This document shows positions 1,467 through 61,472 of a stretch of DNA of 64,000 nucleotides, piece by piece. The stretch's first letter is position 1, and each line of letters begins with the position of its first letter. The notes under the pieces are model-generated. The model saw only the letters and a list, made by a program, of their open reading frames with translations. It was not told the DNA's origin and did no database searches. A program made the position numbers and the translations under genes. Source of the DNA: Punica granatum (lineage: Eukaryota; Streptophyta; Magnoliopsida; Myrtales; Lythraceae); NCBI RefSeq assembly GCF_007655135.1, contig NC_045130.1, positions 13,330,001 to 13,394,000 on the forward strand, given 5' to 3'.

Positions 1467-2098
1467 TTCCCCCTTTTGTGGGAATCTACTTGTTTGTGAT
1501 GTAGTTTGGGTGTTGTCAGCTGACACTGGTTTTCCTGGCACTCCAATGAGCTGAATGTGAGGCGTTTTTGGTGGGGGATTTTGGGTGATAAGTTTGTTAT
1601 TTTCGGAGGCAGGAACCGAGCTTTGTTATAGATTTATTGCTCTGCCAGCTCTATGATGGAATGGTCCTGGCTATGGTGGATCTGATATAATCACAATATA
1701 TGCAGAGTTTCCATGAGAAGGCGGGGTGAAGATTTGGCATCTTTCCGTGTTGCTAGTGGATATCTAAAATGCTCAAACACGGGGATTCTTCCTTGGTTTT
1801 GGTCATCTACGGCTTGTGTCTTCTGCTTGGAAGAACTCAGACACACATGCTCCGGCGCAAAGATTGCTCATTCATGTTATTTCACAATAAGGACTCTTAT
1901 TGTCTCGAGTCTGAGGGTCAAATCATTTCTGGGTTGAACGTCAGATCTTCTGGTTTTTGTTCATTTCTCTTATCTAATAGTTCATTGCATTGATGTTGTT
2001 TTAGGCTTTCCTCCTTAAGAGCACATTAGACAGTTTTGCTGGAGTTCTATATCATATTAGGCCCAGAAAGTTAGGCTTCATATATTGAGATTGGAAAG
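850..2098 (+). other. Probable 5' leader of the SEUSS-like gene, with a leader intron
   Basis: A CT-rich stretch at about 890-945 (runs of CTCTCT and TTCCTC) looks like plant 5' UTR sequence. A strong donor-like site CAT|GTAAGTT lies at 1181, and a plausible acceptor TTTTAG ends at 2004, about 95 bases before the ATG. I infer a non-coding first exon ending at 1180 and a leader intron of roughly 820 bp, but other acceptors (for example TTTCAG near 1417) are possible. No convincing coding sequence lies here. Confidence 0.5.
1436..1466 (+). repeat. Poly-C tract of 31 residues
   Basis: Thirty-one consecutive C residues, preceded by CCCCA and followed by TTCCCCC. It lies inside the inferred leader intron of the SEUSS-like gene. 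Such tracts are length-variable and error-prone in sequencing, so the exact length should not be trusted. Confidence 0.95.
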
Positions 2099-2866
2099 AT
2101 GGTCCCTTCTGGTCCACCGGCTCCAACTGGTGGTGCCCAATCCATTCCTCCTTCACTTTTGAGGTCAAGCTCGAGTCTGTCAGGAGCTCAAGGGGGGTCA
2201 ATGCCCAACCAAAATGCTTTTAATTCCCTGATGTCTCCTCGTGGTCAGTTCAATAATATGAATATGCTCGGGAATGTACTCAATGTGTCTTCTCAACTGA
2301 ACCAATCATTTGAAAATAGTGGTCGAAATGCTGTGCTGCCTGCTTCAGGGAGCAGCCAGCGAACTGGCATTGATACTGGGGCTGAATCTAATTCTTTGTC
2401 AAGTATTGGTAACGGATATCCTGGTGTTTCTGGTCAACTCCAAGGGCAACAATTTTCTAGTGCATCCAGTACCCATTTGAGACCTGATCATTCCACCCCT
2501 CAACAATTTGAACCACAAAATTTCCAGAATGGTCAGCACATGGTGCAACAGTTCTCTGCTTCTCAGAACACCCAGCAGCAGCAGTCCCAACAACAATTCC
2601 AGTCAATTCGTGGAGGGATGGCTGGCGTTGGACCTGTCAAATTAGAGCCTCAAACGGCAAGTGATCAACTGGGAGAGCAGCGGCCACTGCCTCAGCAGCA
2701 GCAACAGCAATTGCAGTCATTAAGGAATCTTGGTCCAGTGAAGTTAGAGCCCCAGCAAGTTCAGAGTATGAGAGGCCTTGCACCCGTGAAGCTGGAACCG
2801 AGTCACTCAGAATCATCGCTGTTTCTGCAGCAGCAGCAGCAATCACAGCAGCATCAGCAGCAGCAT

Positions 2867-2899
<33 letters not shown>

Positions 2900-2905
2900 C
2901 AGCAT

Positions 2906-2938
<33 letters not shown>

Positions 2939-2959
2939 CAGCATCAGCATCAGCATCAG

Positions 2960-2990
<31 letters not shown>

Positions 2991-5900
2991 AACAGCATCA
3001 GCAGCAGCAGCAGCAACAGCATCAGCAGCAGCATCAGCAGCAGCATCAACAATTGCTGCAAATGACAAGGCAGTCTCCACAAGCAGCTGCAGCCCAAATC
3101 AATATGTTGCATCAACATAGATTATTGCAACTCCAGCAACACCAACAACAGCAGCTCATGAAGATTCCTCAACAACGAGGTCAATTCCCACCGCAGTTTC
3201 AGCAACAGAATTTACCCCTGAGGTCTCCTATCAGACCTGCTTATGAACCTGGAACTTGTGCTAGGCGCATCACGCATTACATGAATCGGCAACAACACAG
3301 ACCAGAGGTTTCACTCTCTCTTATGAGTGAATTCTTATTACCTTAGAGGGCGACTGATGAGCGAATAAATTTCTTTGTGCTTATAGGATAATAATATTGA
3401 GTTTTGGAGAAAATTTGTGGCGGAGTATTTTGCCCCCAACGCGAAGAAAAAGTGGTGTGTCTCAATGTATGGAAGTGGACGACAGACAACTGGAGTTTTT
3501 CCTCAGGTCCGCTGCTATACAAAATTTATCAATTTGATAATACCTAATAGAGCCCTGTATCTTTGTAATAAGCTTGCTTCGCCTAGGAATTCACCAGATG
3601 GTTGTGATGCACGTACCTCTTTGTGTCAGCAATTTTTTCTTTTTTTTAGAATCCTTCTTCAGGGAGTCCTGTCAATTAACATGGTTTTGACAGGATGTCT
3701 GGCACTGCGATATCTGCAACCGGAAACCAGGCCGTGGCTTTGGTATGTGTTTCTCGTCTCAGCATAACAATTTTTACCTTGAAGTGGCTCATGGGTTTAA
3801 ATTAGTGGAATTAAATGGCACATGGGTCTAATATTGAGATTTAAGTGGCTTATGGGCTGAAATTTTCTCACTTAATTGGTTGAGTTTCTCTTTTCTCTTG
3901 TGGAGTTCTCATTATGCCCTATATCTCAACCGTTTACCTTGTGGATTTTACAATTGTTAATAGCTATTTCTGTTGTACATTCAGAAGCAACAGTTGAAGT
4001 CCTTCCAAGACTCTTCAAAATAAAGTATGAAAGCGGTACCGTGGAAGAACTGCTAAATGTTGATATGCCTCAGGAATATCAGAATTCTTCGGGTCAAATT
4101 GTTCTTGATTATGCAAAAGCAATACAGGAGAGTGTGTTTGAGCAGCTCCGTGTAGTCCGTGATGGTCAACTTCGAGTTGTTTTCTCTCAGGACCTGAAGG
4201 TAAGTTATTTGAGAAGAATATTTTGGCACTGAGTTTCTAGGTTGCCCTTCTTCACTGCCTTCTTAACGTCTTTTGTAACTGGCAGATATGCTCTTGGGAA
4301 TTTTGTGCGAGGCATCATGAAGAACTTATTCCTCGAAGATTGTTGATACCTCAGGTTGGTCAGAGATATATATGTGTATATATATATTTATTTATTTATG
4401 AGTTTATTGCCATGAGAGTTCTTTATCGCAATTATAGTGTGAAATAACTGACAAAATTTATTTTAACAATTAGAATGAATTTTATAGCTTTTAAACAATT
4501 ATAATGTGAAATAACTGACAAAATTTATTTTAACAATTAGAACGACTTTTATAACTTTTCAACTCTGTTTAAAACATTAATATGCAATGATTAGGCTTGA
4601 CAAGTATCCTAAATAGGCCATCTTCGATTATCAGATTGCTAAGTAGATGCTAGACATACTTTTTCTTTGTTTACACGAAACGCGCATGCTTCCCAGCTTT
4701 GTTTGTTTTGCATTGCGTGTCTTGCCAATGCATGCGACTTGCTGCTCTGTGTAGGTGAGTCAGTTGGGAGCTGCAGCACAGAAGTATCAGGCAGCCACTC
4801 AAAATGCATCATCTAACTTGTCTGTGCCAGAATTGCAGAATAATTGTAACATGTGAGTTTTCTTGCAACGACAGTCCTTGATTTTCTGATTTAAAAAGGT
4901 ATCTGGGTTGTATCTGGTCAGGTTAGTAGCTCCTGTATTTCATATCTAGATTTTTCAATGCCCTGGGCCTAGGGGAAGTCTTACTCTTAGCCTGTATTGA
5001 TGAACTTGTTATATGACTGGTTCATTTCATCTGAATATTGTTTTGTCCCGTTGACAGAGCATTGCACTATATCAACAATTGTTTTGGAATTATTTTTGAA
5101 CATATGTTGTCAATTTAGGTTTCTCTCATCTGCTCGCCAATTGGCAAAAGCTCTGGAAGTTCCATTAGTGAATGAATTGGGGTATACAAAAAGATACGTC
5201 CGCTGTCTTCAGGTGATGCCCATAATTTCTTGATGCGAAAAATGTTATTATTTAAGTTACCTGTTAGCGTTATCCCTTAATGGTTATGTCAGTAGTTGCT
5301 GAGAATGTTGCATATTGCTGTTTTATCCCACAGTTTGACTGTGTGCTTTAATTTGGTGTGGGCAGAATGGAAAGTAATGTGAGATGGAAAATGTTTGTGA
5401 CAACAATAAGCTTCTCTTACACGTGCACGCATGCGCGCGCACACAAAAAGTAGTGAGTATAATGGGAAGAAAATGTAGCAACTGTTCCCTCACTGTGACT
5501 TGTTTGGATTGTGAGTGTGATTTTAAAATCACAACTCTAACATAATTCTACCCACAACAAAACAAAATAACTCATATAAAGTCAAAGAGTGGCCCCCATT
5601 TATACCACTCTTTTTCAACAACAAAACAAAATAACTCATACAAAGTCAAAGGGTGGACCCCATTTATAACACTCTTTTTTAAAATCAAAATCTGATTTTA
5701 AAATCCTACTTTGAAACCAAACGTAGCATAAATTTCTATTGTAAAAAATGGCAGTAAAATGACACTGAATTTCTGTAACTCCCCAAGACTGACTGACAGT
5801 CTCTACGAGTCTGTTACTATTGTTTTTTTTGGTTGATAATGAGGTGTCTCAGCTTCACATGACTAAGTCCCCGTGGCTTATGTGAACACCCTGCCAGCCA

Positions 5901-7591
5901 ACTTGACAGGTCAATTCTGTTATACAGGCCATGCAGGTTGCCCAATAGATAATATTCTGCTGCATAGGTTTTAGGGTGACACAAAGTGTGTTTCGTGTCA
6001 CCACTTTTATGTCTGATATTTGTGAGCAAATATCTCCCCAATAATTATGTGACCTTTTGTCAGTCTGTCTTGGTGCCCTGTTATCCAGCTTTTTCTTTAG
6101 CTAGCTAACTATCTTTTTGGTGTCATTGCAGATATCGGAAGTGGTCAATAGTATGAAAGATTTAATTGATTACAGCAGGGAAACAGAAAGTGGACCTATG
6201 GGTAAGCTTTCTGCAAGTTATCCTCTATTCTACTTTTCCATGTCATTACTTTTGCAACTGTCAAGTCCTGTTTGAGTGAGGTGTTGAAGAAAGGACAGCA
6301 AAATAAATGCTTTAAGTCCTGATAATAAAGGTGCTTCTGGAATTCAATACATCTACTACATTGACTTCGGTGTTAAAAATCCACATGCATGTCATCTGAG
6401 TTCCCCTTTTCTCCCCTAAAATGATTTTGCCTTTCATGGCCAGCATAAATTTCATTATCTTTCCTTCTGGCTCATACATAAATGTGGAAATGAAAAATGT
6501 GTTTATTTGCAAAACATTAAAAAAAAAAGTGCAAAACCACGTGAAAGCATTTAGGGAAATGGCATTTTTAGCAATTAAAGTGTGATATTCTTCATATTTA
6601 TGCTCGTTTCAAAGTATTACAGAACCAAATATGCATCATTTTGAGCAAATATTATTATCTGGAATTTCTTTTACCAGAGAGCTTGGTGAAGTACCCACGA
6701 AGAACAAGTGGCTCGTCAGGCTTACAAAACACACCTCAACAACCAGAGGAACAGCAGCATCCGCAGCAATCAATGTCTCAGAGCACAAGAACTGATCCGG
6801 CCCCTTCTGAGGTCACAGGAATGCAAGTTGATCCAAGCAACAGTGTAGCAGGTGGAGATAACTCGATCAACATCGCATCCACGTCCGCCTCTTCTAGCAC
6901 GATTATAGGTCTTCTGCACCAAAATTCTATGAACTCCAGGCAGCAAAGTTCGATGGGTAACACAGGCAGTCCATATGGAGCATTTAGTGGTGTTCAGATT
7001 GCATCTCCGGGTTCCTCTACGACAACCATCCCACAGACCCAACCCAACGCATCTCCATTTCAGTCACCGACACCATCCTCATCTAATAACCCAAGTCGGA
7101 GTTCTGTGGATATCTTGAATTCTGTGAATTCACCTGCAAATGCATCCCTTCAACAACAGGGAATCTCGAGCGAAGCAGATCAGAGCGAGAATCAGAGCTC
7201 GGTCCAGAAAATATTGCAGGAAATGATGTCTACCCCACTCAATGGTTCTGGGGCTATGTCAGGTATGTGTTCTTTAGGGAATGAGTCCAGTCATGTGAAT
7301 GGGATTATACCTGGGATCAACACTGGAGGCCTAAATGGGCCTAACATCCATAATCCAGGCTTGGGGCCAAGCAGCTTCAGCCAAATGGGTGCGCAGCCCG
7401 CAATGGTCAATGGGTTCAGAAATTCAGTTGGCAATGGTAATCCGCTGATGAATGGAAGAGTTGGAATGGGATCGATGGTTCAAGGGCAAAGCATGAACCG
7501 TCAGTCTGATATGAATAACCAAATACTGAATGGGTTAAGAGCTGTGAATGGCTTCAACAATCTTCAGTACGATTGGAAGCCATCTCCATGA
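2099..7591 (+). CDS. SEU: SEUSS-like transcriptional co-repressor (LDB1-type adaptor), nine coding exons
   Basis: Coding exons read as 2099-3307, 3387-3506, 3694-3742, 3985-4199, 4286-4354, 4755-4852, 5119-5212, 6132-6201 and 6678-7591. All have GT-AG borders and consistent phase, giving 945 residues. The N-terminus begins MVPSGPPAPTGG. Residues about 1-400 are low-complexity and Gln-rich, with VGPVKLEP-type repeats and a Q/H tract (about 244-320). The conserved LIM-binding-like core follows, including EFWRKFVAEYF, WCVSMYGSGRQTTGVFPQ, DVWHCDICNRKPGRGF, FKIKYESGTVEELL, RRLLIPQVSQLG and ARQLAKALEVP. The C-terminus is Ser/Asn/Gln-rich and ends VNGFNNLQYDWKPSP. The Arabidopsis protein is about 877 residues, so this is full length. 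In Arabidopsis, SEUSS works in the nucleus with LEUNIG as a co-repressor of AGAMOUS and in floral and ovule development. A paralogous SEUSS-LIKE assignment is less likely because the N-terminus matches SEUSS. A MITE and a tandem duplication lie in its introns. Confidence 0.95.
2828..3050 (+). repeat. CAG/CAT trinucleotide tract encoding Gln/His
   Basis: Imperfect CAG repeats with interspersed CAT and some CAA codons, within the first coding exon of the SEUSS-like gene (residues about 244-320). It includes runs of up to ten Gln, alternating Gln-His pairs, and a run of six His. The opposite strand shows long Ala- and Leu-rich open frames that are only artefacts of this repeat. Confidence 0.95.
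4430..4563 (+). repeat. 67-bp tandem duplication in a SEUSS intron
   Basis: Two adjacent copies of a unit starting AATTATARTGTGAAATAACT (4430 and 4497) with only a few differences, inside the intron between 4354 and 4755. It has no evident function. Confidence 0.85.
5496..5728. mobile_element. Tourist-like MITE, copy 2 (intronic)
   Basis: Same family as 112-343 and 27971-28202. It shares the ATAAAGTCAAAG and CCCCATTTATAMCAC interior blocks and ends TGAAACCAAACGTAGCA. The left end is degenerate (TGACTTGTTTGG) and no clean TTA duplication is visible, so this copy is probably older. It sits in the SEUSS intron between 5212 and 6132, clear of the splice sites. Confidence 0.8.
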
Positions 7592-19643: not shown

Positions 19644-20734
19644 ATGATCATGGATGAACAATCGTCTGGACCTGCATCCAACTTTTCGGGTTCAGGAGAC
19701 GAAGCTAAGGGCGGGAGTTGTTGCTCACGGGGCCACTGGAGGCCAGCTGAGGACGAGAAGCTCCGGCAGCTCGTTGAGCAGTATGGTGCCCAGAACTGGA
19801 ACTCCATCGCTGAGAAGCTAGAAGGAAGATCAGGCAAGTATATGCAACATACAGATAGTAATATTTCATCATAATTTGATCAAGAAATAATAAATAGTTT
19901 ATTATTATTGCTTATATATTGGATCTTCCACCATGTCTTGCAGGAAAGAGCTGCAGACTAAGATGGTTTAACCAACTCGACCCCAGGATCAACCGGAGAC
20001 CATTTACTGATGAGGAAGAAGAGAGACTCCTCTCAGCCCATCACATACACGGTAACAAGTGGGCCCTCATCGCCCGGATGTTCCCTGGTCGAACTGATAA
20101 TGCGGTCAAGAACCACTGGCACGTCGTGATGGCGAGAAAGCAGAGGGAGCAGTCGAAGATCCGCGGGAAGAGAGTGAGGCCACCCTTTCCTGATCAAACC
20201 ATCTGCAGCGACCCAAACGGTGTGGCTCAATTCCGCGGAAGAAAACCTGGGCTTGATCAAGAGTCAATCAGTTCCTCATTCGAGTTATTCGATTTTCAAA
20301 ACCCTAACAAGGATGGGACTTTTGCTCTATCTCCACCAAGTTCCCTTTCATGGAGCTTTACCTTCGGCCCGGCATCATCATCGACATACAGCCACAAAGA
20401 CAGGATTCTCAAGAGATCAGGAGGCAATTATATTAAATGCTACAGCCAGAGCTCGAAAGGCTTAAGCCAATCCGTTCACCAACCATTTTATTCTTCTTCT
20501 TCTTCTTCTTCCTCTTTCTTCGCAAATAATAAATATATTAATAGGGATCATGATCAGATGGTGAGCTTTTGTGATCAGCATGATGATGATGATTCATCGG
20601 CTAAGTTATTTAAATTGATGAGGTCGTCATCAGCGGCTTCTCGTGAGCATGTGCAAGGTGATGATAGCGGTGGCCAATCGAAGCACGATGAAGTTCCATT
20701 CATAGACTTCCTTGGCGTCGGAATCTCATCATAA
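19644..20734 (+). CDS. R2R3-MYB transcription factor, subgroup 21-like (MYB52/54/105/117 group)
   Basis: Exon 1 is 19644-19833 and exon 2 is 19944-20734, giving 326 residues. A second in-frame ATG at 19650 is an equally possible start. The R2 repeat has Trp at 32, 52 and 71. R3 has Phe84, Trp103 and Trp122, the Phe replacement being usual in plant R3 repeats. RGHWRPAEDEKLRQLVEQYG and GRSGKSCRLRWFNQLDPRIN are characteristic of the MYB52/54/56/105/117 group. The C-terminus, with PFIDFLGVG at about 315-323, matches the motif of that subgroup. Members act in the nucleus in cell-wall regulation, organ boundary formation (LOF1/LOF2) or seed traits; which role applies cannot be read here. The 110-bp intron begins GCAAGT instead of GTAAGT; splicing there restores the invariant GRSGKSC. 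The second intron seen in many R2R3 genes is absent. Confidence 0.92.
19834..19943 (+). other. GC-AG intron of the MYB gene
   Basis: The exon ends ATCAG and the intron begins GCAAGTATAT, a consensus donor except for C at position 2. The acceptor is TCTTGCAG. Joining gives a Gly codon (G|GA), restoring GRSG-KSCRLRW. No nearby GT donor preserves the repeat. Confidence 0.85.
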
Positions 20735-27970: not shown

Positions 27971-28202
27971 TGGCTTGTTTGGTTTCATAGTTAGATTTTA
28001 AAATTTCACTTTAACTTAATTCTATTCGTAACAAAACAAAATAATTTATATAAAGTCAAAGGGTAGGTCTCATTTATACTACTATTTTTCTACAACAAAA
28101 CAAAATAACTTATACAAAGTCAAAGGGTGAACCCCATTTATACCACTCTTTTTCAAAATCAAAATCTGATTTTAAAATCAAATTTTGAAACCAAACGCAA
28201 CA
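27971..28202. mobile_element. Tourist-like MITE, copy 3
   Basis: A 232-bp element, the same length as copy 1. Ends TGGCTTGTTTGGTTTCA and TGAAACCAAACGCAACA, flanked by TTA on both sides (27968-27970 and 28203-28205). Interior blocks match copies 1 and 2. Confidence 0.88.
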
Positions 28203-28843: not shown

Positions 28844-31050
28844 ATGCTCCTTACCGTTTCAATCAATCCCATTGTCTTTTCTCCAACCGCCTGCTCCATG
28901 CCCACTGGCCATTTGCCTTTTGTCGTCGCCATAATGCACCCAAGCCTCTCTCAGTACTCGCAGCACTTCGGAGATCTGCGTCAGGGCAGCGGAAAGTATT
29001 CGTGCCCCTTGCTGATCCATCCTCCAAGAGACCAGTCTCGGTGCCAGTGCCATCTACAGCCCAATGCGTTCAGTTTTCGCCACTACGAGTCACCAGTGCA
29101 TGATCAAATCCATCGGTTAGATTGCCCTGCTTTGCTGAAGTTATGTAATGCATTTTCTCTCAGATCAACTGTTTTTGCGTGCCCCAAAATTGTATAAAAT
29201 GCCCTTAAAGACTGCTATGACCGTTCTGTCACTTACCCTTCTTCCCCACATATAATTCGTTAGAATTGTTGCTCTTCCCCTGAGTTTGCTTGCAGCCTAT
29301 GTTTCCACAGCAAATCGGGAGTTCCTTCAATGTAAGCCAACTTTTAGCAATGTTTCATGTGCTCTGTATTTTGTGTTCATCTTCGATTTCTACTTGTTTT
29401 CTACTTGCTTATCAGAATGCAACTATGAATGAGCAATTCAGATTTGTTACTGCTAACACATCTCTAGGTAATCTCTTTTTTTAATCAATCTCATCCAGTA
29501 CAACATTTTCTTTCCCTTATTTCTTAATAATTATCTAATATATCTCGTGGCTCATTCTCTGAGAATTTCAAAGAAGTGATATTCACTATGACTGAAATGT
29601 TTGTTTGCTATCTGATTATGTTTGTTTTGTGTTTGTTACAAAGGACCATGTTTTTCTGACCAGTTTGTTCAATTTTCTTCTAGCATAAATAAAGCCTCCG
29701 AGTATAATTTTTCAAGTTAAATGTGAGTTTCTTGGGCTCCCAGATAGTAATACTACCTAAACTAGGTCTAGCTATTTTGTTTCTCTCTATCTGTTATTTC
29801 CATAAATTGGCAAATTTCTAAGAACATAAATTCAACTGTCACCGCTAACCTTGTTAAGCACGATCATAGCATCTTGGTTGGATGCAGATATGGACTGTGC
29901 TTCATTAAAAATATTGGTTCCCGATTATCTATAGCTAGGTTACTTGCAATTACTCATTCGTTTGTGGGTTTGTGGTTATTTGAAGATCCATCTCAAAATC
30001 CATATATTCTCTTGTTACCCTCACCTTTATTTGCTTGCTTTCTGGACATAAGAAGTTAAGAGAATTGGGAGGACTTGTCCTGACACATTTTAGTTATCAT
30101 TACTTACGTGTCATTCCTTGTTTCCTTAAATGTAGAAAGGTGCTTGATAATATGCTTAAGTTTTTATGGTGAAAGTTTTCGTAATTGATAATCTATTGCC
30201 TCTCTTTTCCAATATAAAGTCCTAAGATGCAGTATGTATAACAAGCATGGTCTCTCTCTGTGTCTGTTCTTTGTTTAGTTTTTGCCATTTATTTAGTTAT
30301 GGATCTTTATTTTAGATTTATTATTATGTTATTTTTGGAATTGCGAGGTTACTTCTCGTGAGACTTGTGAAAGATGAAATGTGTTTGTAATTTCACTTCC
30401 GAACCTCAGGTTTGGATTGTGGTGACGCAAGGGATTTGATGGCATGGTTTCTTTCCTGTATATCAAGGCAATTTAGCGTGAACAATCGTGATGCTTTATC
30501 AGTTTACTCTTTTTAATCTGTTATTACCCGCTTTGTTTTTATTAGATAATTCTAATGGGAAAAGAGTGCCTCAGCTTTCAGTTTAGTTAATCACCAATGC
30601 CATGTTAATGCCTTTGTAGTTCTCTATAACTCTAACCTTTCAGTGGTTTGATTTGTTCACAGTTTCATGTTGGCTTGATGGGCCTGTTGGGTGTGATTTT
30701 GCAATGTTGCAGATTGCAAATTTTGTCTTTGAGAGTTCGTTCCATCTATCCGTTTGATTATTCTTGCAATTCTTAGCTTCCCGCAAGTCCATCTCTCTTT
30801 GTGCACTTTTTGTTTTTCTTCTTTGTGTTTGCTTTACAGAAATAGAGGCAAGTCTCTAATAGATGTATAACGATCCATTGAGGTGAATGACCAAGGGAGG
30901 TGCTTTGTCTCTCATGTTATGTTTCGGATAATCTAAGTGGGATTTTTGTTGATGATGGATTGGTTTTGCATAATTCTATTTGGTTGAAGTACTTTTAAGT
31001 TTTTCTTGGATTGTAATTGTAATTTGTTTATACACTACGACATGATGAGT
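28844..31050 (+). other. Candidate multi-exon gene with tiny exons, unrecognised
   Basis: A GC-richer opening segment holds an ATG frame at 28844-29197 (117 codons, no known domain). Three short segments follow with good borders: about 29294-29330 (TTGCAG|CCTATG ... TTCAAT|GTAAGC), 29417-29466 (ATCAG|AATGCA ... TCTCTAG|GTAATC) and one opening after GATGCAG at about 29887. They join in frame to read PMFPQQIGSSFN, NATMNEQFRFVTANTSL, then DMDCASLKILVPDYL and a stop. How the first segment joins is not solved, since the ATG frame does not fit in phase. It could be a real small gene, a decayed copy or coincidence. Confidence 0.3.
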
Positions 31051-58031: not shown

Positions 58032-58293
58032 ATAAGTGTCATTCTTGTTTCTTGGCATTGTTATGCCTCATCAACAAGCTGCAGCAGGACTATTGCTGGG
58101 AACCTGAGACTACAAATCTAATTGAAATTGATGAACCAGCAGGCAGAGACAGGCTTGAGCTGTTTTAAGTGATGGCCATGTTGGTTTTGGTGTGATATAA
58201 TTGATGAGCAATTGATCTAAGGTGCAAGCCAAGCATTAACAATAGAAACTGAGAGTAGATTTTTGGAATCACTAATTGTAGTACTAGCAGTAT

Positions 58294-61200
58294 TAAGGGT
58301 GGCAATTCGTATCGTGTCGTATTTATACGTGTCGTGTCTAAACGGATTCGTGTCATTGAAGTCATCACCCATACACGACACGATTATTAAACGGGTCAGG
58401 TTTTAAAAACACGTACACGACACGTTTATATCCGTGTCAACCCGTACATGACACGTTTAAATCTGTTTATCGAAACGTGTCATAATAGGTACACGTATAC
58501 ACGACATGATTATACATGGTACCCAGACACGTTAACACAACACGTTTATCCGATCAACCCGTTTACCCAGACACGTTTACACGACCCGTTTATCCGATCA
58601 ACCCGTTTACCCGGACACGTTTACACGATCTGTTTACCCGTTCAACTTGGTTACCCGAACACGTTAATACGACCCGTTTTTCCGTTTATTCCGATTACTC
58701 GGACACGTTAACACGACCTGCTTAAAGTTTTCCAAAAAGAAATGAGAAGAAAAAAGAATCAAGATTTGGGCACGAATCTTTCATAGGAGAAAGTATGAAA
58801 ATCAACATCGAAGATATGGGCAAAAAGAACTGAAGGAATATACAGACTTAGATTTCAACTTCAACATTGTCAAACACTCATCCAAATTATACAGGTTCAC
58901 CCATGCTGCTTTCCTCAATTTCTGACTTGTAATCCTCCATCAAAGATACAAGTCTCCCTATATCAGAATGTTTTCCTGCAGAAACAAGAAAAACACGATC
59001 CATCAAATACAGATTGCAGCAAATTATATTTAATAAGAAACTTTGATAACATAATCCAACCCTTACCATAAAGTATTAGAGTCGAACTGAAATTTAAAAA
59101 AAAAAAACTTAGGCATTCACTTTACGAACAATAAATCTACTTCTCAGCTAATCCTTTTATCTCACATTATTTAAAACAAAAATAAACAAGATACAGGCCA
59201 CAATGGATTGAAAAAATAAAGTAATAAAGCATATTAGTCTTCACCTTAAATTGCCTTGATATTCAACAAAGAAACTAGCGCATCCAAGTCCATGTGTTGA
59301 CATAATACGATACTGAACTGCAAAATAGACACATCATGAACACATTCACTTGTCCATGAGTTAAAGGGGAAGTGGCCTGAAAATGTTAGAATAGAACTTA
59401 AGATTTGTAAACAAAGAGTCACGAACACAGAGTTGAACTGCTGAGATAGAGCGAGATAGACCATGCAGTTATCCATAAAACATAGATAATTAGATAAAAA
59501 GCTGCCACAGCTCAAACACTCAAATAAGACGACTTTTTTCACCAAATAATTTAAGCAAAGTACAAAGATTTTCTTATTCTGTAGTTACGGGGACAAAATA
59601 TGGCATGTAAGTCATGAACTCAGCGGGCATCAATTCTTGGGGAAATACTTGGCAGGGGCACTTTGTTGATAAGTTGGAAGGCATGGAAAATCTCGTGATA
59701 AGTTAACCCTAGCTATTCAAAAACTCCATTTATGTTTAAGAAAAGTTTAAGAAATAGGTATTAACAACACCATGAAAATCTCCATTTATGTTTACAAAAG
59801 ATTGAAAATTTCACTCCCAATCAGTCAAAATCCATTAGCAAACTCACTTTATCAAAACACAAGTTGTAAAATGGATGCAGTTCCTTGCAACAAGTAAAAA
59901 ACAGAACCAATAAGAAAAGGCTTGCACCAAGATGAAGTGGCAGTCCTGGTACCTCATGGCTGAGATATTCCCACATGCTAATGCAATAAAATGGGATGGC
60001 TTTTCAAAACCAGACCAGCAAGAGCTTCACTTGCTATTGAGACATGAAATTGCCATTGCATAGACTATAGTTGAATCGTTACCTGTTTTGAGTAGTAGCA
60101 CAAGGCAGCGTAAGACCGCCTCCCCTCTCCCGATTCCTTTGACTAGTAGCGCTATGGCTTCCAACTTACTAAATTCTGCCCACAATCTCCAATGCCAGAC
60201 AAGAAAGCAAAATTCGATCAAACTAAGCCAATCTGAAAAGAGAAATGTTATGTTAAAAGGACAAACGAGGAGCAAAGATTTATAAAAATCAACAAATTTC
60301 AGAAGCTGGCATCGCTAGTTGACTGAAGAGTATAAGAAAGAGAGAGTTGATATATTTATGAAATTTTATTTAAATTGGTCTTTTGTGAGCTCTTGAGATT
60401 GAACAGGTTGGGAATGAAGAGTATGAGAATATGATTAAAAAAGAGGATTCTCATATGTAAATATTTTCTTGAGATTTGCCCCATGAGAAAAGGACCCGAA
60501 CAAATAAAAAAACAAAGCTCCACCACTGTAATCTAAGCTAGTCTTTGTTAATATCTTCTTCTGTGACTCCAATCCCTTCGTGAGCTCTCTCCATCTCTCT
60601 TTAAGATTTTCCCTCTCTCTATAAGTTCATAAATAAAAAAATAGCCTAGATACGACAAATGAGCAGAAGGTTAAATCCAACAAACTAACCGTAAGAGCAC
60701 CAACCAAGCACTAAAATCGAAATGGTTGAGAAAACAACAAGATCGATAGAGCAACGCTAACACAGAAATTCCAACACAACTCGAGAGGGTAGCAAGACAA
60801 ATAAAAAAAATCCACCTTTTACTCAAATCAAGCAGGCGGAGAAGGGGGGAAGAGAAGATCGGAGGAGACGAATGATACCTGCCGCCGGCAGGTGATCTGA
60901 GGTCGGAAATGGGGAAAGATCTGTACTTTCTCCTTCGATTTTGGAGGCACAGAGAGAAGCAGAGACCTCGAGGTCGACGGCTCGGGGATCGAGGGCTCGA
61001 GGGTCGCGGGGTCGAGTCGAGGTCGCAGTCGAGGGCCCGAGGGTCGCGGCTCGCGGGTTCGTCTTCGTCTGGTCAGCTGGTTTGAGCAGAGGGCTTCGAC
61101 TCGTGAAGATGAAGGATGAAGGGGGGGCGTGTGAAAGTTGAAACCGGGTGGAAGCTCAAGCCTATTGCCTACTGCAGTCCTGAAGGAAATTTCGAAATTA

Positions 61201-61464
61201 GAGTTAACCTAAGGATATTTTCGTAAATTCAGTTAGATAAACGGGTTAATGGATTACACGATTACAATAACATGATTAAACACAGTTAAATAAACAGATT
61301 TAATCGTGTATAATTGGGTTACACTGGTTTAACCCGCTAAGACACGTTTATTAATCGTGTCTAAATGGGTTGAACATGTTTAACCCGAATATCAAAAATA
61401 TCCAATCCAAACCCGTTTAACTCCGTGTCGTGTAATCGTATCGTATCAAATATTGCCAGCCCTA
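58294..61464. mobile_element. hAT-type element, 3171 bp, carrying a gene fragment
   Basis: Ends TAAGGGTGGCAA and TTGCCAGCCCTA (complement TAGGGCTGGCAA), flanked by the perfect 8-bp repeat AGCAGTAT (58286-58293 and 61465-61472). Both subterminal regions are dense in ACACGTTTA, ACGACCCGTTTA and GTGTCGTGT words, the expected binding-site clusters of hAT transposase. No transposase frame is present. The interior (about 58750-61150) has exon-like segments of an unrelated minus-strand gene. Confidence 0.9.
58887..61140 (-). pseudogene. Gene fragment captured by the hAT element, exons still joinable
   Basis: Minus-strand segments: a GC-rich first exon from about 61140 to 60879 (ends GGCGGCAG|GTATC), a second 60175-60083 (GGGCAG|AATTTAG ... 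AAACAG|GTAACG), and a last exon 58975-58887 (TCTGCAG|GAAAAC ... GTATAA). All junctions are phase 1. The joined frame reads TSDHLPAA, EFSKLEAIALLVKGIGRGEA, VLRCLVLLLKTG, KHSDIGRLVSLMEDYKSEIE, then ESSMGEPV and stop. The first exon is open in this frame over its 3' part but I find no ATG, so the original start is missing or elsewhere. I do not recognise the protein. Introns are retained, which argues for DNA-level capture rather than a processed copy. It might be transcribed, but nothing here shows that. Confidence 0.5.
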
Positions 61465-61472
61465 AGCAGTAT

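Follow-up and report, generated by a model that had tools for sequence, protein, structure and literature searches.

A survey of maize and rice by Gisby and Catoni (2022, PMC8903248) covers gene-carrying elements with hAT ends (Pack-hATs), and one of those from maize is described there as extending a host exon and supplying a splice donor. Also from maize come the Ds2 and Ds-l4 elements, one of which, Ds-l4-483, is presented in PMC3260210 as a compound element holding several trapped sequences. In animals, 208 of the 370 Pack-TIRs reported in PMC8277862 are of the hAT type. A route to gene capture by tandem insertion is set out in a review (PMC13317346). As for pomegranate, the account of its genome (PMC5999313) speaks of transposable elements in general terms in the passages that touch on them, and no description of the hAT family considered here was found by title in the open-licence literature. 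The original prediction concerning this DNA held that gene capture by hAT elements is less often described. It is rarer in print, but to judge from the passages cited here and below, it is already known in grapevine, maize and animals.

The element considered here lies in the window, a stretch of 64,000 nucleotides of the pomegranate (Punica granatum) genome (contig NC_045130.1, positions 13,330,001 to 13,394,000, forward strand). It is very probably a non-autonomous Pack-hAT, part of a pomegranate hAT family, put together from several donors whose pieces would have been copied in by template switching, and spread in trans by a partner resembling one of its relatives, L034 (L numbers denote loci retrieved from the genome).

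The element, its ends and its family

Positions 58294-61464 of the window make up a complete hAT-type element whose coordinates are exact. Its left terminus, starting at 58294, is TAAGGGTGGCAAT, and its right terminus, read as the reverse complement from 61464, is TAGGGCTGGCAAT; they are flanked and followed inward by the features listed here.

58286..58293, plus strand: left target-site duplication (TSD), AGCAGTAT, a perfect match to 61465-61472
58294..58874, plus strand: left terminal region of the hAT family, comprising the TIR, subterminal repeats of 44 bp (58520-58718) and subterminal DNA common to family members; 90.7% to L010
61184..61464, minus strand: right terminal region of the hAT family, TIR included, covered by family members
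61465..61472, plus strand: right TSD, AGCAGTAT, perfect

A perfect 8-mer at two fixed ends has a computed chance of about 3e-5. The perfect target duplication and matched hAT termini that had been predicted are confirmed, and the ends recur in the genome: compared by blastn with 30 other elements, positions 58294-58693 are covered on average by 28.7-30 of the 30 and positions 61194-61464 by 27-30.

Used as a query, the left 467 bp of the element gave at least 42 matches in the genome, itself included. As 40 of 510 first-look candidates were scored, further members of the family may exist. The other loci matching the left end, 39 in all, were retrieved (two further match rows fall within them). 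The 8-bp TSD expected of a hAT element, perfect in the window copy, is present together with both ends at 27 of the 39 when one mismatch is allowed, and 20 of these are perfect; the scoring script let each end slide by 3 bases, which among the 27 only L046 needed, and L037/L038 and L033/L044 probably each represent the same insertion on two contigs, assembled twice. Beyond these, L028 and a second element at L016 also have perfect TSDs. The many TSDs across the family differ from one another.

A candidate source of transposase is L034 (C8, 4112 bp, TSD AATACAAA), which holds an unbroken frame of 714 codons with the RNase-H fold and dimerisation domains of hAT transposases (PF05699, 1.1e-31; PF14372, 8.1e-27). 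The best match listed for this frame is a pomegranate RICESLEEPER 2-like protein of 693 aa, 93% identical, and a segment of about 45 residues in the frame resembles an unspliced intron. L042, L043 and L010 carry broken or partial relatives, with the dimerisation region present (the Pfam runs for this domain covered L010 and L034 only). All four share with the window element its short, hAT-type inverted ends. The match to L034 is confined to those ends, positions 7-386 (85.6%) and 2895-3171 (81.6%) of the element, and this is the plan of a Ds2-like element, with both subterminal regions in common with an autonomous one and filler between. As predicted, no transposase was found in the interior: 10 minus-strand open frames gave no Pfam match, and L034 contributes likeness at the two ends alone, as befits a non-autonomous element. 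An Rfam scan of the window at gathering thresholds also gave no match.

The Pack-type nature that had been proposed for the element is borne out by relatives with the same ends and different interiors. Among them, L019 includes part of the host helicase gene ISE2/DExH15 (L019:1982-4033), in one open frame with the family's leader; of 80 residues searched, 79% align with the pomegranate protein, at 90% identity. Two other frames, L012:887-3663 and L015:1790-4454, resemble, by our reading, the C-terminus of a receptor kinase and another plant gene, and we take them to be possible captures; a Pfam search of the two interiors gave no match. At L016, L039 and L055, two elements or element ends are adjacent or nested, as the tandem-insertion model of capture needs.

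Two relatives share more than the ends. L009 (C6) is a second full-length copy, 95.8% identical, with TSD CCTCAGAT/CCTCGGAT, and the third, L011 (C5), has no left terminus and shows 94-96% identity along most of its length. With 40 of 70 candidates scored, the whole composite was present solely in the window element and these two sisters. Since the window copy and L009 carry different target duplications, the composite element has itself moved.

Exons and the sources of the interior

The minus strand of the element can be read as a set of exons, one of them optional.

60879..61185, minus strand: exon 1 (E1), a GC-rich leader without an ATG in the open frame; start approximate, end exact; donor CAG/GTATC
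60083..60232, minus strand: exon 2 (E2), a composite of the L049 and L048 pieces described below; TTCAG/...ACAG/GTAACG
59245..59317, minus strand: exon 3 (E3), optional; TTGCAG/...AAG/GTGAAG, with the AG/GT sites also in L052
58887..58975, minus strand: exon 4 (E4), to the stop codon; acceptor CTGCAG/

Given assumed transcript ends, E1-E2-E4 joins in one phase to give 171 open codons and E1-E2-E3-E4 gives 170. In the window copy the four-exon frame has its first ATG at codon 148, and in each splice form the longest frame opened by an ATG has 23 codons. The prediction of minus-strand exons was right about the good splice sites and about the joining of E1, E2 and E4 in one phase; it overlooked E3 and the lack of a useful ATG.

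Might the element be a simple deletion derivative of an autonomous one, its exons being degenerate remains of the leader and tail of the transposase gene native to the family? The two outer exons offer some support for this. The 5' part of E1 is family sequence, a leader common to L016, L017, L019, L021, L025, L031, L055 and L056. Most of E4 falls within a block, 58914-59062, that is also common to the family (92-95% in L010, L016, L019 and L056), and in L010 the E4 sequence lies downstream of the hAT dimerisation domain; the transposase-related L034, L042 and L043 gave no match to E4. E4 was considered as captured host sequence and rejected for the window element, because other family members carry it. 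Between the outer exons the explanation breaks down: no base of 59094-60693 is covered by any of the 30 other elements (blastn, E 1e-4), L034, L042, L043 and L010 included, and most of that stretch matches loci where no hAT ends were found. Simple deletion accounts solely for E4 and the 5' part of E1, and fails for E2, E3 and most of the introns; as an account of the element it is very improbable.

The interior is better described by its matches elsewhere. A search of the genome with it gave 51 matches, with 40 of 70 candidates scored, and 1.9 kb of it is a mosaic: its pieces correspond, at 84-95% identity, to five loci or locus families distant from one another, with sharp switches from one to the next.

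59067..59691, minus strand: piece matching the L052-L054 locus family (best L052); contains exon 3 with part of intron 2 and of intron 3; 87.6-88.6%
59687..59965, minus strand: second piece matching the L052-L054 family; 86-90%
59970..60164, minus strand: piece matching C7 (L048); 3' half of exon 2 and its splice donor; 94.9% over 197 columns
60161..60247, minus strand: piece matching C3 at 7.7 Mb (L049); splice acceptor and 5' half of exon 2; 94.3% over 87 bases
60248..60333, minus strand: 86 bp without a donor between the L050 and L049 pieces, matching the sister copies alone among the matches listed
60334..60832, minus strand: piece matching C3 at 26.7 Mb (L050), within intron 1; 83.8% over 513 columns
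60832..60965, minus strand: piece matching C8 (L051); 3' part of exon 1 and its splice donor; 87.4% over 135 columns

With identities in this range, the loci fetched may be relatives of the true donors. L052, L053 and L054 are three related loci on C4, C4 and C3, a repeated family that, from the similarity, is the putative source of 59067-59965; relative to L052, about 480 bp are missing between the element's two pieces. The L051 piece has a second genomic match at C8:26026441 (83%). No hAT ends were found in the stretches retrieved for the donor loci (1.3-2.4 kb per locus). A profile search gave no gene name for L049-L054, leaving L048 as the sole named donor. The minus strand of L048 holds the start of a DnaX/STICHEL-like AAA gene (TIGR02397, 2.3e-26, below the model's own cut-off because the gene start alone was supplied; PF13177, 3.9e-11), the name STICHEL being our presumption, and the piece in the element covers that gene's leader and putative start codon in antisense orientation.

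The interior thus comes from host genomic DNA and is partly genic, as the matches to L048-L054 and the 5' end of a gene at L048 indicate. It does not keep a captured coding sequence in frame: what the L048 gene gives is about 11 nt past its presumed ATG, antisense. Captures of introns and of non-genic DNA are counted too in the relevant passages of PMC3260210 and PMC2528002, and following that usage an in-frame coding sequence is not treated here as a strict requirement of a Pack-TYPE element.

What had been predicted was a fragment of a single parental gene, and the presence of good splice sites, exons compatible in phase and retained introns is what one would expect if a single intron-bearing host gene had been captured whole from one parental locus. 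Against this, successive stretches match different chromosomes and switch sharply, one of the switches falling inside E2, which is joined in mid-exon from C3 (L049) and C7 (L048). Moreover, E4 is found in other elements of the family, the L048 piece is antisense to its gene, and neither splice form has a long ATG frame. The single-gene account is already contradicted and can scarcely be credited. More generally, the case suggests that phase-compatible exons within transposon ends do not imply a single parental gene. Other parts of the prediction fared better. Capture at the level of DNA, with introns retained, is supported, and no ancestral locus without hAT ends was found among the 40 of 70 pomegranate candidates that were scored. 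In the donor loci the splice donor of E1 and both splice signals of E2 and of E3 are already present; the captured pieces would have brought their own splice sites with them, so the minus-strand exons could act as a spliced transcript.

Most of the joins can be read. The two L052 matches overlap by 5 bases, those of L049 and L048 by 4 bp (TTGG) and those of L051 and L050 by 1 base. At the join of L048 and L052 there are 4 bases matching neither, and at that of L052 and the exon-4 block up to about 4 such bases. On the outer side, the L051 match (from 60965) and the family match (reaching 60949-60953 in L016, L019 and L056) overlap by 13-17 bases. The window element does not have the L051/L050 join to itself: L025 and L055 show it too. 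L011 has a different L048/L052 join (L011:2501-2900), its L048 piece running to L048:1179 rather than 1017 and its L052 piece entered at 637 rather than 544. This means that the interior was remodelled (or partly deleted) after assembly, or else was assembled in more than one step.

According to the model we favor, breaks in the element would have been repaired with template switching, so that pieces of donor DNA were copied in, perhaps aided by the short overlaps of 1-5 bases that occur at three joins. Transposase acting in trans from an L034-like partner would then have spread the composite. A different mechanism, compatible with a multi-donor element, would be that DNA between neighboring elements was trapped by tandem insertion and joint re-mobilisation, as in the Pack-CACTA model. 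It has been published for Pack-TYPE elements, in the relevant passages of PMC8903248 and PMC13317346, and the nested or adjacent ends at L016, L039 and L055 speak for it; the donors, however, are far apart, no element ends were found in the retrieved donor stretches, and the joins examined have none. Tandem insertion could explain some of the pieces, but it is rather unlikely as a replacement for template switching.

One region of the window itself, 30080-30640, about 28 kb from the element, was considered as the parental gene and rejected, its similarity to the element or to L052-L054 being 73-79% over short stretches (best 30447-30518). That level makes it a distant relative of the L052-L054 family, not a donor. 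Long alignments made with cheap gaps scored 681 there, against a maximum of 562 among shuffled sequences (n=100), and DNA just outside the aligned block scored 96 against a shuffle median of 90, not above the shuffles. Elsewhere in the window, 5554-5690 and 28030-28154, 22 kb apart, hold similar 64-bp units, each in two tandem copies, and frames at 2075-7591 and 19898-20734 presumably belong to a SEUSS-type co-regulator and a MYB transcription factor gene.

Gene models on the sister copies

Two annotated pomegranate gene models, LOC116212135 (P0001) and LOC116208693 (P0002), lie on the sister copies L009 and L011 and use the same exons. LOC116212135 follows E1-E2-E3-E4 in L009, with its first 25 residues encoded 267-341 bp outside the element (L009:4331-4405), so that the model is fused to host flanking sequence. 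LOC116208693 follows L011 and skips E3, whose donor there reads GC; its ATG is absent from the window copy. These correspondences suggest that the two annotated "genes" are transposon-borne patchworks.

Between the window copy and L009, substitutions amount to 3.6% in E1, 2.0% in E2, 1.4% in E3, 0 in E4 and 2.1-3.7% in the introns (computed with exon boundaries one base out), numbers too small to tell exons from introns or to support a claim of constraint. E1 also has indels of 7-8 bases among the copies. The minus-strand exons would most likely yield a chimeric RNA that is non-coding or junk and that in some cases is joined to a host exon next to the element, as in the model LOC116212135. Perhaps, at long odds, there is more to it: the family would build spliced units de novo from the leaders, introns and splice sites of unrelated loci and spread them as a unit, and the fusion of at least one copy (L009, in its gene model) to a host exon would yield a lineage-specific chimeric gene, expressed and possibly translated.

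Comparison with other gene-carrying transposons

Rice Pack-MULEs, like the pomegranate element, are patchworks of multiple loci; they differ in belonging to the Mutator superfamily and in their 9-bp TSD. Closer in kind are the Pack-hATs of maize and rice, with which the pomegranate element shares hAT ends, an 8-bp TSD, lack of autonomy and host DNA inside (PMC8903248). It differs from them, as they are presented there, in having been resolved into five donor loci or families, and it comes from another plant and another family.

The maize Ds2 and Ds-l4 elements (PMC3260210) offer a similar mix of likeness and difference. They too have ends in common with an autonomous element, filler DNA and retained introns, and Ds2-18, like the pomegranate case, is an annotated gene whose copies are all transposon-borne. 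Their partner, however, is Ac, whereas that of the pomegranate element is RICESLEEPER-like, and a spliced unit stitched together within an exon, as in pomegranate, is not stated for them in the relevant passages of that paper. In grapevine, Hatvine-6 combines shared TIRs and a transposase with variable interiors that match genic exons and introns, much as here; the passages on it in PMC2528002 do not detail the donor joins, most of which can be read in the pomegranate element. With animal Pack-TIRs (PMC8277862) the likeness is in the hAT type of many of them and in the joins, for which microhomology (1-36 bp, median 2) is described there and gap-filling by template switching has been proposed; unlike the pomegranate element, those described are mostly single-copy, and their hosts are animals.

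What pomegranate adds is a well-resolved case of a cut-and-paste transposon assembling a multi-exon unit from loci far apart, with most of its joins readable, sister copies to put the steps in order and a candidate source of transposase at hand. In kind it belongs among the Pack-type hATs, which are already known, with Pack-hATs, Ds2 and Hatvine-6 as its precedents.
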